A program made the translations under genes and the position numbers. From NCBI GenBank assembly GCA_021161545.1, contig JAGHAJ010000081.1:1-6666 (forward strand): a DNA stretch of 6,666 nt, in the 5' to 3' direction. The notes beneath the pieces are model-generated. The model searched no databases. It saw only the letters and a list, made by a program, of their open reading frames with translations, and was not told the DNA's origin. Source of the DNA: Synergistota bacterium. Its GTDB lineage: Bacteria > Synergistota > JAGHAJ01. Below, in pieces: positions 596 through 6,037 of this stretch. Positions within the stretch are counted from its first letter, which is position 1. Each line of letters starts with the position of its first letter.

Positions 596-1348
596 TCAAA
601 CCCCATGACTCAGTAGCATCCCTCCATTGACATTTATAGTCTGCCCAGTTATATATGATGCATCATCGCTCACAAGAAAGGAAACTACCTTAGCAATTTC
701 TTCCGGTGTTGCAATCCTACCCAAAGGGATACTTTTTACTTTTTGCTTACCCTGCTCTGTTAAAAGTTCAGCAGAAGACATATCGGTAAGCACAAGCCCA
801 GGAGATACCGCATTAGAAGTTATACCATATTTAGAATATATCTTAGCAATTGAATGGGTCAAGCTTATCAGAGCAGCCTTTGATGCAGCATAATGAACTT
901 GGTTAAATCCTCCCCACTGCCCACCTATAGAAACAATATTTATAATCCTCCCCCACTTTTTCCTCAGCATAAAAGGTAATACTTCCTGAATCAACATAAA
1001 TGGACCCTGTAAATTTACCTTTAGCATCCTTTCCCAATCACTATCAGTTATAACTTCAAAAGGCTTTTCCTGAGAAATAGCCGCATTGTTAATCAAAATA
1101 TCTATAGCACCTAAATCATTCATTACAGTTCTTACTATGCTCCTTACGCTATCTCTATCTGACTGTTCAAGCTGAAAATACGAGACTCTAAAACCATCTC
1201 TTGCAAGAGTTTGCAACAAATCTTCTGCCATATCTCCCCTAAAATTATATGTAAAGACAACTTTATAACCACTCACAGCAAGTTCTCTTACTATAGAACG
1301 CCCTATTCCTCTACTTCCTCCAGTAACAAGAGCTACTCTTTGAGACAC
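596..1348 (-). CDS. Short-chain dehydrogenase/reductase, FabG-like
   Basis: The 250-residue protein is a complete classical SDR. The cofactor motif TGGSRGIG is at residues 9-16, NNAA at 87-90, and the catalytic tetrad is Asn112, Ser140, Tyr153 and Lys157 (YAASK). PLGRIATPEEIAKVVSFL and the C-terminal ITGQTINVNGG are typical of the FabG branch. It should reduce a carbonyl, or oxidise an alcohol, with NAD(P)H in the cytoplasm. Arg37 after the second strand is compatible with NADPH use, but this is weak evidence. FabG itself reduces 3-oxoacyl-ACP, yet no acyl carrier or fatty acid gene is present here. Its start lies inside the transketolase gene (16-base overlap), so a ketose or keto-sugar substrate is more likely (inference). 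The GTG at 1348 is preceded by AAGGGGTGG at seven bases and by AAGGAA directly adjacent. An in-frame extension is not needed, since the family's first strand begins at residue 4. Confidence 0.9.
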   Translation of the reverse strand: MSQRVALVTGGSRGIGRSIVRELAVSGYKVVFTYNFRGDMAEDLLQTLARDGFRVSYFQLEQSDRDSVRSIVRTVMNDLGAIDILINNAAISQEKPFEVITDSDWERMLKVNLQGPFMLIQEVLPFMLRKKWGRIINIVSIGGQWGGFNQVHYAASKAALISLTHSIAKIYSKYGITSNAVSPGLVLTDMSSAELLTEQGKQKVKSIPLGRIATPEEIAKVVSFLVSDDASYITGQTINVNGGMLLSHGV

Positions 1349-2247
1349 TTCCTTACCACCCCTTCTATAGCTTCAGGCCCTATGCCATACATTTCTGCAA
1401 GTTCTAAGGGGTCACCAGACTTACCAAAATCATCTTTGATGCCAAGTTTTACCAACCTAACTCCTATTACTTGTTCGGCAATTACATCTGCCACCGCAGA
1501 ACCCAATCCATTATACACATTATGATCCTCAATCGTTATTGCAATTTTCACTTGTTGTAGTATCTTCCCAAACGCCTTGCCATTTATAGGTTTCAACGTT
1601 GGAACATTCACAAGCCATGTGTTGTACTCCTCCACAATAGGCAAAGCCCTATGGGTAGTAATTCCTGTCGTAAACACAGCTATTTCCTTACCTTTTCTTA
1701 GAACATCCGGCAACCCCAAAGCAAAGTCATAGCCAGAAGCGTGAACATCAGGGACAGGACTTCTCCCCGTTCGCATGTATACTGGGCCTTTATAATCGAG
1801 CATGAAGTCCACACACTTTTTTAGCTCTATTTCATCAGCAGGAGACAAAACAACAAAGTTTGGGATAGTTCTGTATATACCCAAATCTTCCACTGCCTGG
1901 TGTGTAGCTCCATCAGGTCCTACATCTATTCCAGGGTGTGAGGCAACAATTTTAACATTAAAAGATGGATATGCAATTGCATTCCTCGCCTGCTCTATTG
2001 CTCTCATAGAAGCAAAAACACCGTAAGTAGTCACTATAGGAATAATTCCCACAGTCGATAAACCAGCTGCAACTCCGAACATATTCTGCTCTGCTATTCC
2101 ACACTCCACAAACCTTTCTGGATACCTCTCTCTAAACCAATGTGTGCATGTTCCCCCAGCCACATCAGCATCTAACACAAAGAAATCCTTTCTATTCTCT
2201 GCAATTTCTACAAGGTATTTACCAAAAGCATTCCTCAATGGTATCAT
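1333..2247 (-). CDS. Transketolase, C-terminal (pyrimidine-binding) subunit
   Basis: The 304-residue protein carries the pyrimidine-binding and C-terminal domains of transketolase. FVLDADVAGGT is at residues 23-33. The segment ECGIAEQNMFGVAAGL at 48-63 holds Glu53, the residue expected to activate the thiamine ring. TTYGVFASMRAIEQ is at 73-86, DVGPDGATHQAVEDLG at 108-123, YMRTGRSPVP at 157-166, and EDHNVYNGLGSAVADV at 240-255 in the C-terminal domain. Its ATG at 2247 overlaps the stop of the N-terminal subunit gene (ATGA), typical of subunits made in equal amounts. AAAGGAG lies eleven bases upstream, and an in-frame TGA precedes the start closely. Together the two chains total 570 residues, shorter than single-chain bacterial transketolases of about 660. 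The GIAEQ motif is also found in DXP synthase, but the split organisation and the N-terminal partner favour transketolase. Confidence 0.93.
   Translation of the reverse strand: MIPLRNAFGKYLVEIAENRKDFFVLDADVAGGTCTHWFRERYPERFVECGIAEQNMFGVAAGLSTVGIIPIVTTYGVFASMRAIEQARNAIAYPSFNVKIVASHPGIDVGPDGATHQAVEDLGIYRTIPNFVVLSPADEIELKKCVDFMLDYKGPVYMRTGRSPVPDVHASGYDFALGLPDVLRKGKEIAVFTTGITTHRALPIVEEYNTWLVNVPTLKPINGKAFGKILQQVKIAITIEDHNVYNGLGSAVADVIAEQVIGVRLVKLGIKDDFGKSGDPLELAEMYGIGPEAIEGVVRKCLKE
1356..1364 (-). promoter_or_regulatory. Ribosome binding site of the SDR gene
   Basis: AAGGGGTGG ends seven bases before the GTG at 1348, inside the transketolase C-terminal subunit gene. A second purine-rich match, AAGGAA at 1349-1354, touches the start codon and is too close to be the main site. 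Confidence 0.5.
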
Positions 2248-3044
2248 CCGACATCAATCTCCTTTAAGGCCAACTCCAACTCTTCATCTGTTAATCCCCT
2301 ACTACCATGCCACTCCGGCTTATCTTCCATAAATGAAACACCTTTACCCTTGATAGTGTGAGCCACAATACATGTAGGTGTACCTTTGGCCTCTCTCGCA
2401 CTTGTAAATGCAGACTCTATATCATCAAAGTCATGACCATCTATTTCAATCACATTCCATCCAAATACTTTCCACTTAGACGCCACGTCACCTAATGCAG
2501 TAACATTATCACACCTATCATCGCTCTGAAGGCCATTGTAGTCAACTATTGCAACCATATTGTCAAGGTGGTGGTATACCCCAAACATAGCACCCTCCCA
2601 TACCTCACCTTCATTACATTCTCCATCTCCAAGGATGGTATAGACCCTAAAAGACATCGTCAACCTCTTTCCTCCAAGTGCCATACCGAGCGCAGCAGAG
2701 AAGCCCTGTCCCAACGAGCCAGAAGCTGCCTCTATACCAGGTATCCCCACTTCAGGGTGACCCTGAAGCAATGCCCCAGTGTGTCTCAGTTTCCACAGTT
2801 CCCTCTCTTCTATAAAACCTTTCATAGACAAAACAGCATACAAAGCAGGACAAGCATGCCCCTTTGAAAGAACAAACCTATCCCTGTTAGGATCATCCAA
2901 GTCATCGATGCACATTTCCTTAAAGTAAAGATAAGCCAGCAACTCAACAATAGACAAAGAGCCCCCTGGGTGACCCGAGCCCGCATGGTATATTGACAGT
3001 AGAAGCAATTTTCTTATATTTCTGGCTATTCCTGCAAGCTCCAT
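2244..3044 (-). CDS. Transketolase, N-terminal (TPP-binding) subunit
   Basis: The 266-residue protein is the thiamine-diphosphate half of a split transketolase. Visible motifs are SGHPGGSLS at residues 23-31, LSKGHACPALYA at 59-70, ASGSLGQGFSAALGMA at 107-122, and the Mg-TPP motif GDGECNEGEVWEGA at 139-152, closing with Asn170 in VDYNG. IKGKGVSFME is at 231-240 and WHG at 245-247. With the downstream subunit it would move a two-carbon ketol unit between a ketose and an aldose, in the cytoplasm. ATG at 3044 is the first in-frame start after an in-frame TAA at 3065-3063, and lies seven bases after the FkbM stop. Its Shine-Dalgarno is weak (GGGGGTG, about ten bases away), which suggests coupling to translation of the gene before. 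Location in a glycan operon argues for a dedicated role rather than the housekeeping pentose phosphate enzyme, but the latter cannot be excluded. Confidence 0.93.
   Translation of the reverse strand: MELAGIARNIRKLLLLSIYHAGSGHPGGSLSIVELLAYLYFKEMCIDDLDDPNRDRFVLSKGHACPALYAVLSMKGFIEERELWKLRHTGALLQGHPEVGIPGIEAASGSLGQGFSAALGMALGGKRLTMSFRVYTILGDGECNEGEVWEGAMFGVYHHLDNMVAIVDYNGLQSDDRCDNVTALGDVASKWKVFGWNVIEIDGHDFDDIESAFTSAREAKGTPTCIVAHTIKGKGVSFMEDKPEWHGSRGLTDEELELALKEIDVG
2259..2265 (-). promoter_or_regulatory. Ribosome binding site of the transketolase C-terminal subunit gene
   Basis: AAAGGAG is a good Shine-Dalgarno match inside the preceding gene. Its eleven-base distance to the ATG at 2247 is slightly long; the ATGA overlap probably adds coupling. 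Confidence 0.6.
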
Positions 3045-3051
3045 GCTACTT

Positions 3052-4146
3052 CTACACCCCCATTATACAGTACAAAACACTATCATACCACGTCTGCGTA
3101 TGATGCCCCAAAAACATTCTATACCCTGGAACCCAATCTCTAAGCATTAACGGAATTTCCCATATATGAGATGTGCGATGGTAAACAGATACTTGGAGTT
3201 TGGGCTTGTACTTTTTTACAATCTCTTTTGCACCCTTCAATGCCTCAACTTCTGCACCTTCTATATCCATCTTTATCAGTGTCGGAGATTTCTTTACATT
3301 CTCAAAGGAGGTATCCAAAGATACACCATTAACATAATACTTCCCCTTACCTCCATCTATGTGGGAAAACATATCACCAACACCGTTGAATCCTAAACGC
3401 ATGCTTTTACTCCACAGAGCCGCCTTTACCAAAAATACATCCTCCTCACCCACAGACTCCTCCAACTTACTATAATTTTCCTCATCAGGTTCAAAAGCGT
3501 ATATAACGACATCTTTTCCTAATTCGCAAGTAATCTCTTTTATGGTATCACCAGAATATGCACCAGCATCCACTACCACATCACCCCTTATTGGACTAAC
3601 GATGGGGTGGAAATACCGCTTATAATCTGAAACAACGATTTTGGAGGCATCTCCATCAATCAAATAAACCAATAATGACAAAAATACACCCTTACTTTCC
3701 TCATCTCCCAGCAACTCCCACACCGTTAGTAAATTCTTCCAGTTATTGTAAATCTCACTACCCTCTATGTCGAATTCACAAAGACTGAGTATGCACGGAA
3801 GATAACTCACTCCCATGCGATTTAGTTCCTTAGCTATCTCTTTTTCATACACACTCCCTATAACAACTACATCACCCATCTTCAATTCACTGGGACTCCT
3901 CACCTCCAAGCCTCTCAGTTTTTTGTTCCATTTCAAAGGATTACTATCCACAAAATACTTGACAGTCACACCTTGCTTCTCCAGCACATCTAAAGTTCTT
4001 TCTCCACCTTTACTCGCACCCCAAACGACTACACCATCATTCTTCACAGCATCTAAAGATTGTCTTATAGAACTTCCATACTTAAAATACAATGTGTTTT
4101 TATTCACTCGCTCCTCAACAAGCTTACGAAATTCACTCAAATCCAA
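3052..4146 (-). CDS. FkbM-family methyltransferase with N-terminal Rossmann-like domain
   Basis: The 364-residue protein has two parts. Residues about 37-115 form a small Rossmann-like domain (VVVWGASKGG, YFVDSNPLKW, GLEVRSPSEL, DVVVIGSVYEKEI), closely related to the tail of the preceding glycosyltransferase. Residues about 185-362 form an FkbM-type SAM-dependent methyltransferase. The SAM motif is VVDAGAYSGDT at 191-201, then AFEPDEENY (218-226), LIKMDIEGAEVEALKGA (290-306) and SVYHRTSHIWEIP (320-332), with a C-terminal segment ending in VLYC. FkbM enzymes usually methylate sugar or polyketide hydroxyls, so O-methylation of the glycan is likely (inference). The start is TTG at 4146, chosen because AGGTGAGG lies upstream at good spacing and an in-frame ATG is lacking nearby. 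The gap to the preceding stop is 11 bases. No membrane segment is seen. The acceptor and the role of the first domain are unknown. Confidence 0.87.
   Translation of the reverse strand: MDLSEFRKLVEERVNKNTLYFKYGSSIRQSLDAVKNDGVVVWGASKGGERTLDVLEKQGVTVKYFVDSNPLKWNKKLRGLEVRSPSELKMGDVVVIGSVYEKEIAKELNRMGVSYLPCILSLCEFDIEGSEIYNNWKNLLTVWELLGDEESKGVFLSLLVYLIDGDASKIVVSDYKRYFHPIVSPIRGDVVVDAGAYSGDTIKEITCELGKDVVIYAFEPDEENYSKLEESVGEEDVFLVKAALWSKSMRLGFNGVGDMFSHIDGGKGKYYVNGVSLDTSFENVKKSPTLIKMDIEGAEVEALKGAKEIVKKYKPKLQVSVYHRTSHIWEIPLMLRDWVPGYRMFLGHHTQTWYDSVLYCIMGV
3808..4032 (-). other. Rossmann-like module, copy in the FkbM protein (residues 39-113)
   Basis: Aligned by eye without gaps to residues 272-346 of the glycosyltransferase, this segment has 32 identical positions out of 75 (about 43 percent). 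Shared landmarks are VVV-GAS--G, FVD, KW-K, G-EV--PS, DVV and EI-K-L--MG. The glycine-rich turn after the first strand and the acidic residue after the second suggest a nucleotide-binding fold, similar in layout to the N-terminal domain of PglD-type enzymes. The ligand is not known. Confidence 0.75.
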
Positions 4147-4150
4147 CTGT

Positions 4151-4159
4151 CCCTCACCT
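4151..4159 (-). promoter_or_regulatory. Ribosome binding site deciding the TTG start of the FkbM gene
   Basis: AGGTGAGGG overlaps the stop codon of the glycosyltransferase gene. The GGTGA core lies seven bases before the TTG at 4146. This strong site is the main reason to accept a TTG start. Confidence 0.72.
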
Positions 4160-5216
4160 ACCCTATAATGAATTTCTCCAATCCCATATTTTTAAGCTGT
4201 TTCACTATCTCCCTACTCCAGCTACTCGCTACAAAGACCACATCTTCCTTCGAAATACTGCTGGGTGGTTTGACTTCAATTCCATCAATCACCTTGCCCC
4301 ACTTTTCTCTGTCATTATCCACAAAAAACCTACACATCACTCCCATTCTCCTTAAATCCCTCAGGACACCCCTTCCATGAGCACTCGCTCCAAACACCAC
4401 TACAGGAACACCCTTCTCGATAACATCATTCACCATTTCCTTTACACTCTTATATCTCCCATGAAACCAGCCATAACCAACATGGTCGCCAAAATCTCCA
4501 GGATATTTGCGGAAAATATACTCTTTTTGAGACTTCACAACAGATGGATTTCGCATACCAACGCTTAGATTATCACCATGAATACCTCTCTTTACTAACG
4601 GTTCATTTATAAATTTAAATAGGCACTTCTTCGTAACCCTCAGCCACAAATCCCACACTTCCGGTCCCATTAAATACTCATCAAATCCTCCTACTTCTTC
4701 CAAACACTTCTTCCTAACCAAAGCTGAAGATATAAGAATAAAATCCCCTCGCACTATTTCAGCATGTAAATCCCCTTCAACTTTCTCAACAACAGACAAA
4801 AATGGGCTTACCACACTCTCCTCGCCCAACATTTGTAAATAACCAGTATACACAACACCAACATCAGGCGAACTTTTCTCCATCACTTCAATCTGCCTCT
4901 CCAGTTTCTCCGGCAACCATTCATCATCACTGTCTAAAAATGCCACGTACTCTCCTCTTGATAATCTTATTCCGCTATTTCTTGCTGCAGATGGACCCCT
5001 GTTCCGAACATACCTAATATAAATCAATCTCTCATCGTTATACCTCATCACTATATCAGAAGTATCATCCTCAGAGCCATCATCCACAACTATAAGTTCA
5101 AAATCACCATAAGTCTGACTTAATACACTATCTACTGCCTTAACAACCAAATCACTTCGATTATATGTCGGTATTATCACGCTAACTTTGGGATTAACAT
5201 TTTTTTCCTTTACCAT
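4158..5216 (-). CDS. Family 2 glycosyltransferase with C-terminal Rossmann-like domain
   Basis: The 352-residue protein starts with a GT-A glycosyltransferase domain. VSVIIPTYNRSD is at residues 11-22, ELIVVDDGSEDDTSD at 40-54, RGPSAARNSG at 73-82, and the metal and nucleotide-sugar binding motif FLDSDDEWLPEKL at 93-105. GPEVWDLWLRV at 184-194 fits the usual acceptor-site ED region, although the usual second acidic residue there is Val187. This domain transfers a sugar from a nucleotide donor to a growing glycan, at the inner face of the membrane. A second domain follows at about 265-350, with VVVFGASAHGRGVL, FFVDNDREKWG, GIEVKPPSS and VVFVASSWSREI. It resembles a dinucleotide or nucleotide-sugar binding fold and matches the N-terminal domain of the next gene. 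The ATG at 5216 overlaps the preceding stop (ATGGTAA). No membrane segment is seen. Donor and acceptor sugars are unknown. Confidence 0.88.
   Translation of the reverse strand: MVKEKNVNPKVSVIIPTYNRSDLVVKAVDSVLSQTYGDFELIVVDDGSEDDTSDIVMRYNDERLIYIRYVRNRGPSAARNSGIRLSRGEYVAFLDSDDEWLPEKLERQIEVMEKSSPDVGVVYTGYLQMLGEESVVSPFLSVVEKVEGDLHAEIVRGDFILISSALVRKKCLEEVGGFDEYLMGPEVWDLWLRVTKKCLFKFINEPLVKRGIHGDNLSVGMRNPSVVKSQKEYIFRKYPGDFGDHVGYGWFHGRYKSVKEMVNDVIEKGVPVVVFGASAHGRGVLRDLRRMGVMCRFFVDNDREKWGKVIDGIEVKPPSSISKEDVVFVASSWSREIVKQLKNMGLEKFIIG
4179..4403 (-). other. Rossmann-like module, copy in the glycosyltransferase (residues 272-346)
   Basis: This is the partner of the module at the start of the FkbM protein. 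Here it sits at the C-terminal end, so the two copies face each other across the gene junction. It reads VVVFGASAHGRG, then FFVDNDREKWG, then GIEVKPPSSI, then DVVFVASS, ending eight residues or fewer before the stop. Confidence 0.75.
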
Positions 5217-6037
5217 TCTTTATCCCTCTCATATCCGAGCTGTATTAAAAGGTCCCCAGCTACTTCCTTAAATATATCTTTGTGTTCTTCCCTAAAAAAA
5301 TTCCGCCAATCTGCATTATCCCCTTTCCTCAGGTGAGAAGGAGCCTCCCTCTTCATATTCGAGAAAGAAAATTCCTCGATAAAGCTCTCTTCCATTTTAT
5401 TCAAACCACAAACAGAAAGCAGCAAGGCCTTACCCTTCTTCTGTATTAAGTCTTCAAACCTAACTAAAACAAACTTATCCTTCACCTCCAAGAAGGATTC
5501 CACATGTATCTTCCACTGCAGCACATATTTTTTGAAAAGAGAAAGGTCTTTATATACCTCCTCTGCTGTAAAATAATTATAAGTTGGCTGACACAAAATA
5601 GACTCTTCTCTCACTACATGGTGAATAAGTGAGTTAACCACAGCTCTACCATCTCTAAGTATATAAAATAACTTATCAAACCTATCTAAGATACCATCTC
5701 CGTACAATAAGGCAGGAGGGGTATGACTCCAAATCAGGGAAGATACAGACAATACAAAATCCAAATCCACATTTATAAAGGAGGAAAGTTTCCCATCCTC
5801 CCGCAACTGCTTATGGAAATATATTTTACCCTCTTTCCACTCAATCCTATCCAATTCAAAGACTTCACTAAAATGCGGCTTTAACCCTAATGTGTTATAA
5901 ACCTTCTTGGTAAGGTCACCAATCCCACTTCTTGCACTAAAACTACTATACACACCAAGGATTTTTTGGCACTTTCTTAATATCCTCCACATCAGATAAT
6001 TTCCTGACTTTTGGCACCCACATTGCAATACCTTCAC
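5210..6037 (-). CDS. PAPS-dependent sulfotransferase family protein
   Basis: The 275-residue protein has the hallmarks of the sulfotransferase superfamily. A 5'-phosphosulfate-binding loop lies at residues 7-20 (GCQKSGNYLMWRIL). HTP follows at 105-107. The 3'-phosphate-binding segment is at 124-137 (FYILRDGRAVVNSL, with R128 and S136). VRFEDLI is at 192-198, and the C-terminal LRKGDNADWRNFF (236-248) matches the conserved RKG...W loop that closes over PAPS. The family moves a sulfuryl group from PAPS to a hydroxyl or amine; in this setting a glycan or a lipid-linked sugar is the likely acceptor (inference). The start is GTG at 6037 in the overlap GTGA. An in-frame TGA lies directly upstream at 6040-6038, so no earlier start is possible, and GGTGGAG sits four bases before the GTG. 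Length is typical for a single-domain cytosolic enzyme; no signal peptide or membrane segment is seen. The acceptor cannot be read from the sequence. Confidence 0.82.
   Translation of the reverse strand: MKVLQCGCQKSGNYLMWRILRKCQKILGVYSSFSARSGIGDLTKKVYNTLGLKPHFSEVFELDRIEWKEGKIYFHKQLREDGKLSSFINVDLDFVLSVSSLIWSHTPPALLYGDGILDRFDKLFYILRDGRAVVNSLIHHVVREESILCQPTYNYFTAEEVYKDLSLFKKYVLQWKIHVESFLEVKDKFVLVRFEDLIQKKGKALLLSVCGLNKMEESFIEEFSFSNMKREAPSHLRKGDNADWRNFFREEHKDIFKEVAGDLLIQLGYERDKEW
5224..5230 (-). promoter_or_regulatory. Ribosome binding site of the glycosyltransferase gene
   Basis: GAGAGGG ends seven bases before the ATG at 5216 and lies inside the 3' end of the sulfotransferase gene. The spacing is standard and supports this start. 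Confidence 0.6.

Follow-up and report, generated by a model that had tools for sequence, protein, structure and literature searches.

Two neighbouring genes for unrelated enzymes, a GT2 glycosyltransferase and an FkbM-family methyltransferase, carry the same Rossmann-like module at their facing ends, and this module is fused to a wide range of other enzymes of glycan clusters, often to several neighbours at once. The module represents a variant within an already known superfamily, and its fold was known too; the interesting part is its serial use along glycan clusters. We put at roughly even chances the interpretation that it is a non-catalytic nucleotide or NDP-sugar module, which would provide a common ligand signal for successive glycan enzymes. 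Serial use of such a module on consecutive glycan enzymes was not found described in a literature search, which does not prove that no description exists.

The gene run and its two module copies

The window, the whole stretch of DNA that was analysed, is an entire contig of 6,666 bases (C36) from a draft genome of 1.58 Mb in 288 contigs. All of its genes reside on the minus strand, and neighbours overlap or are about 10 bases apart; thus, judged by this arrangement, they probably form a single operon, which resembles a cluster for a surface glycan or an unusual sugar. The run enters the window with a PseG-like protein truncated at the window and contig end (6034-6666), which scores 44.8 bits with TIGR03590, far under the equivalog cut-off of 153.55. 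It is followed by a sulfotransferase (5210-6037; PF00685, 36 bits), the upstream neighbour of the glycosyltransferase gene, with which it overlaps by 7 nt. The GT2 protein (4158-5216, 352 aa) is assigned by PF00535 at 133 bits (cut-off 23.3) over residues 12-119, and its motifs VVDDGS (DDGS) and FLDSDDEW (LDSDD) are intact. The FkbM protein (3052-4146, 364 aa, TTG start) is recognised by PF05050 (59.3 bits, cut-off 22.7) and TIGR01444 (63 bits, cut-off 37.7) and contains the SAM motif in VVVDAGAYSGD and the KMDIEG motif in IKMDIEGAE. Directly downstream lies a split transketolase (1333-3044, minus strand), consisting of an N-terminal subunit (2244-3044; PF00456, 159 bits) and a C-terminal subunit (1333-2247; PF02779 and PF02780), beside genes for an SDR dehydrogenase (596-1348; PF13561, 204 bits) and an ATP-grasp protein truncated at the window end (2-580; PF02222, 28.7 bits; PF02786, 22.3 bits). 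These transketolase, SDR and ATP-grasp genes resemble a small pathway dedicated to an unusual cofactor or sugar.

The module is located at residues 272-346 of the GT2 protein (4179-4403, minus strand), the full domain spanning about 271-352, and at residues 39-113 of the FkbM protein (3808-4032, minus strand). A first-pass annotation of the region 3808-4403, made by eye, had reported 32 identities in 75 ungapped positions between these segments and had placed them at facing ends of two unrelated catalytic domains. BLASTP returned exactly this alignment (32/75 identities, 42.7%, zero gaps, E about 5e-20), and the range, the residue limits and the placement at the GT2 C-terminus and the FkbM N-terminus are likewise exact. 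Among 20,000 shuffles the mean number of identities was 5.8 and the maximum 18, and the highest BLOSUM score was 22 as compared to 160 for the real pair; the E value and the shuffles together rule out a chance similarity. At the DNA level the copies are identical at 115 of 225 positions (51%), with agreement at 28 of 75 third positions and a shared codon at 16 of the 32 identical residues, and a search for an in-register direct DNA repeat between them found none. The low DNA identity, the third positions and the missing repeat indicate that the similarity is real but old and resides at the protein level. A recent duplication or DNA-level gene conversion is ruled out by the 51% identity and the lack of such a repeat. 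The draft genome contains a single FkbM gene and eight GT2 genes, and the module profile matches strongly only in the two neighbouring genes described here; a third, weak match (E 5e-4) falls in a frame of 228 aa at another place in the genome, which may encode a Rex-type protein.

Fold, family and conserved positions

Over the module region of either window protein, all Pfam models remain under their gathering cut-offs. The Pfam and NCBIfam matches of the window modules are weak and sub-threshold but all belong to one superfamily, comprising the second half of Methyltransf_14, PglD_N, CoA_binding and NeuD. The C-terminal Methyltransf_14 model (PF08484) scores 19.3 bits on the GT2 copy and 14.3 bits on the FkbM copy, below the gathering value of 23.5. 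PglD_N (PF17836) matches the GT2 copy with 14.8 bits, under its cut-off of 23.4, and does not match the FkbM copy; the cut-off is passed by a few other module proteins, such as L100:7968-9131 with 28.5 bits. PF13727 (CoA_binding_3) does not match the window proteins, while the match of the A1 module profile in a PglF-like dehydratase falls within the CoA_binding_3 domain of that enzyme. When a profile of nine modules was compared to solved structures, 3nkl (E 9e-11), Rex and VioB were among the matches, and a profile of the FkbM copy matched 3nkl and Rex.

An AlphaFold (AF2) model of the GT2 module (pLDDT 92.5, pTM 0.82) has its structural matches among proteins of this kind, where values differing by less than 1 Z are to be read as ties: WbaP 8t53 (Z 11.9, 93 residues), 3nkl (11.4), CAC2185 2g6t (11.2), the perosamine N-acetyltransferase PerB (11.1), Rex (10.9), VioB (9.5), 2py6 (9.1), KijD1 (8.8) and PglD (8.5). 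The full-length FkbM model is of low confidence (mean pLDDT 63); only its comparison with 2py6 and the confidently predicted portion of its N-terminal domain were used. Its best structural match is 2py6, a solved FkbM protein of Methylobacillus flagellatus with identical domain order (Z 21.4 over 328 residues, N-terminal domain included) but distant sequence; thus, an FkbM protein with such an N-terminal domain has already been solved, the domain being unnamed in the title of the entry. A search for functional work on 2py6 found none. The profile searches place both window segments in the same superfamily, and the predicted fold agrees with this, which rules out different folds or unrelated families for the two segments; the profile matches and the predicted fold thereby bear out the initial description of the module as Rossmann-like. 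A narrower assignment, to the non-catalytic Rossmann-like domains of the PglD_N, CoA_binding_3 (the WbaP 'DUF') or C-terminal Methyltransf_14 kind, forms part of the interpretation to which we give roughly even chances.

In an alignment of 87 modules conservation is highest at three columns, namely the first glycine of the loop, G276 (98%), the aspartate following strand 2, D300 (95%), and loop position three (glycine in 77%, serine in 16%), and the GT2 copy of the window reads GASAHG...FVDN. This conserved loop and the aspartate support the nucleotide-binding signature noted in the first-pass annotation, and the Rossmann-like fold, the loop Ser/Gly and the Asp after strand 2 are structural features shared with PglD_N. 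In Pcryo_0637, this domain is a platform for UDP, with Ser11, Asp40 and Asp41 touching ribose and uracil; the contact residues are kept in PglD, and in both proteins the serine and one aspartate contact the ribose and the second aspartate the uracil of the UDP-sugar (PMC8040287). By our reading of the motifs, the loop position and the aspartate of the module may be equivalent to these residues. The position of the base-contacting Asp36 of PglD is, in most modules including both window copies, occupied by Asn or Ser, so that the base preference may differ. The structural neighbours use various ligands, namely TDP-sugar (VioB), GDP-perosamine (PerB), UDP (Pcryo_0637), NAD(H) (Rex) and TDP-sugars (KijD1 and TcaB9).

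Several known systems resemble the window modules in part. The PglD_N or NeuD-type domains (PglD, VioB, PerB, Pcryo_0637) share the GAxxHG-type loop, the Asp after strand 2 and the fold (Z 8.5-11.1); they bind NDP-sugar, and the same ligand class is predicted for the window module. In contrast to them, the window proteins are devoid of a hexapeptide acetyltransferase domain, have the second Asp replaced and remain under the Pfam cut-off. The WbaP DUF, and with it the PglF-like dehydratases whose CoA_binding_3 domain is reached by the A1 profile, appear similar in fold, and share the accessory position of the domain and the link to glycan-assembly enzymes. However, the WbaP DUF resides between membrane helices and has a swapped beta-hairpin, whereas the window module is terminal on soluble glycosyltransferase or methyltransferase domains. 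The C-terminal domain of TcaB9 and KijD1 (Methyltransf_14) is comparable in fold and by the weak match to its second half, but is attached to a sugar C-methyltransferase instead of GT2 and FkbM. The N-terminal domain of CAC2185 is similar in fold but has another catalytic partner; we take its structure, 2g6t, to represent the C2185-like_N family (PF22674), which matches several modules weakly and does not reach the window proteins.

Fusion partners and clustering of module genes

A search of other genomes for further fusions, as the first-pass annotation had suggested, found the module on many other glycan enzymes. In distant bacteria the glycosyltransferase partners are GT2 (usually with a C-terminal module), GT4 (at either end), GT8, DUF5672, TOD1-type and GT-D; further partners are FkbM (N-terminal module), TylF-like and other methyltransferases, LicD, WbsX, Capsule_synth, cytidylyltransferase and radical-SAM proteins. 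No module match was found in plasmid and phage collections. Runs of the module on neighbouring glycan genes occur in several phyla. In Alkalihalobacillus trypoxylicola four consecutive genes (L100:4377-9131) bear it, the first being an FkbM gene (N-terminal module) and the next a GT2 gene (C-terminal module), which are the two architectures of the window in reversed order, and in a Lachnospiraceae region it is present on 10 of 17 called genes. A related genome, G006, holds four copies within 7 kb, two in short frames, of which one is visible only when read from an internal start, and two at C-termini, of a GT2 and of a glycosyltransferase-like (GT4-type) protein. At the loci L107 (G195:C40:50001-70000) and L110 (G197:C2:267001-287000), more than half of the glycan-cluster genes bear the module, and several catalytic parts of these genes are not recognised by Pfam. 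Free-standing copies of about 130 aa are present in the related genomes G002, G004 and G008. In three related genomes such modules of 128-134 aa (L017:6486-6890, L018:6158-6562, L019:6401-6787) have constant flanks: on one side a TPR/glycosyltransferase-like protein (about 675 aa), on the other a protein of 108 aa, which has a prepilin-like N-terminus in the single copy read.

In 11 genomes, each reached via one module and with the seed genes excluded, 49 of 59 module genes have another within 10 kb, as compared to 2.9 expected for a uniform distribution. Since glycan genes cluster regardless of the module, GT2 genes with and without it were compared: among the GT2 genes listed, again with seed genes excluded, another module gene is located within 10 kb of 6 of 7 with a module versus 20 of 142 without (Fisher p = 1e-4), where matching by frame length may miss some module-bearing GT2 genes. 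In an order-wide sample of 38 genomes unselected for the module, 29 are without it, and the other nine hold 26 matches, 18 of which (counted by hand) are within 10 kb of another. Within the sample of the window's own phylum, clustering occurs in only two of the eight genomes with more than one match, and the remaining matches look, by frame length, like PglD-type and PglF-type enzymes. Together, these samples indicate that clustering is pronounced where terminal modules are frequent, but not universal. Modules of the same locus are no more alike than those of different loci (mean identity 0.231 and 0.233, respectively); thus, their co-occurrence is not simply due to recent tandem duplication, and something favours keeping modules together.

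Possible role and origin of the module

If the module provides a common ligand signal, its GxSxxG/GxGxxG loop and the aspartate following strand 2 would most likely hold a pathway nucleotide (UMP, UDP or TDP) or a corresponding nucleotide-sugar, and the binding state would be passed on to the catalytic part of the protein. Since a single glycan cluster has the same module on many enzymes that are otherwise unrelated, consecutive reactions, in the window the transfer of a glycosyl group and a methylation, could in this way come under a single signal, for example the nucleotide by-product of glycosyl transfer. We infer the identity of the ligand, and a regulatory rather than purely positioning role, from WbaP and the PglD-type enzymes. 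The WbaP DUF binds uridine nucleotides, and UMP inhibits WbaP at the micromolar level; its authors propose pathway feedback and that such DUFs may act on several enzymes of a pathway (PMC10942596). A grouping of glycan assembly and methylation by means of the module, as put forward in the first-pass annotation, is a plausible hypothesis. On the other hand, the fold is widespread and sharing it is no proof of function, and docking or cluster-wise gene transfer would also yield a clustering of module genes. More tentatively, and with the balance somewhat against it, it might be speculated that an interchangeable nucleotide-binding module, placed at either end of many unrelated enzymes per cluster and also occurring as a free protein, serves as a cluster-wide sensor or handle coordinating successive assembly steps. 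If true, there would be a general design principle by which the synthesis of surface polysaccharides is coordinated. The proposal for WbaP and PglF-like dehydratases, by-product feedback via a shared DUF, would then also cover glycosyltransferases, methyltransferases and other enzymes, and soluble isolated domains would make that proposal directly testable. The module would also be a marker of enzymes acting in one pathway, many of which are without an assigned function.

The main task of the module might instead be docking or dimerisation, with like modules associating to gather the enzymes of glycan assembly into a complex. Such a role would suit the runs of module neighbours with unrelated catalytic domains, the placement at either end and the small standalone modules of related genomes, and most of the WbaP dimer interface lies in its DUF (PMC10942596). 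We nevertheless consider it improbable, as locus-mates show no extra likeness, conservation is highest at the ligand loop and Asp rather than at a surface patch, and the WbaP dimer employs a beta-hairpin swap beside the fold, of which the window module has no sign. We give a similarly low probability to a module that is part of the active site of each enzyme, positioning its own nucleotide-sugar or acceptor as in the N-terminal domain of PglD, VioB and PerB or the C-terminal domain of TcaB9 and KijD1, so that the pairing of neighbours would reflect a shared substrate type only. The structural matches do include these same substrate-binding domains, with NDP-sugar bound (PMC8040287), and the resemblance of the FkbM copy to 2py6 over the entire length indicates that the pairing of FkbM with this N-terminal domain is old. 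However, the chemically diverse partners, including LicD, WbsX, radical SAM, cytidylyltransferase and GT-D, are hard to fit to a single role of this kind. In addition, GT2 enzymes already bind their donor in the GT-A domain.

Least probable, and in our view very unlikely, is a purely local history in which the two copies arose by duplication of one module, or by the splitting of a GT-module-module-FkbM fusion, and have since had unrelated or no common work. The first-pass annotation had suggested a local duplication, and part of this stands: by score, each window copy has the other as its best match (154), although the modules on their nearest catalytic relatives are less similar (56-57 for GT2, 99-100 for FkbM), the AU test does not reject the two as sisters (p-AU 0.63), and a tandem module pair within one protein exists elsewhere (L105:10310-12040). 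The margin over modules of other genomes is, however, small (149 and 146), third-codon-position similarity is at background, and locus-mates are generally no more alike. Moreover, the GT2 copy is 47% identical to a Geobacillus TylF-type module, above its identity to the FkbM copy, and the combination of FkbM with an N-terminal module is a common architecture that other bacteria have too. The window pair ranks 28th of 3,736 module pairs by similarity, and only 10 of 84 branches are starred in the 87-module tree, the sequences being too short and divergent for resolution. Thus, given the narrow margin and the old divergence, a local duplication is possible but unproven, and the scores hint at an exchange or duplication of the module within the window lineage. 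The L105 pair belongs to a radical-SAM/SPASM protein in a glycan cluster, and its two modules are close sisters (100/95 support), the clearest recent module duplication seen.
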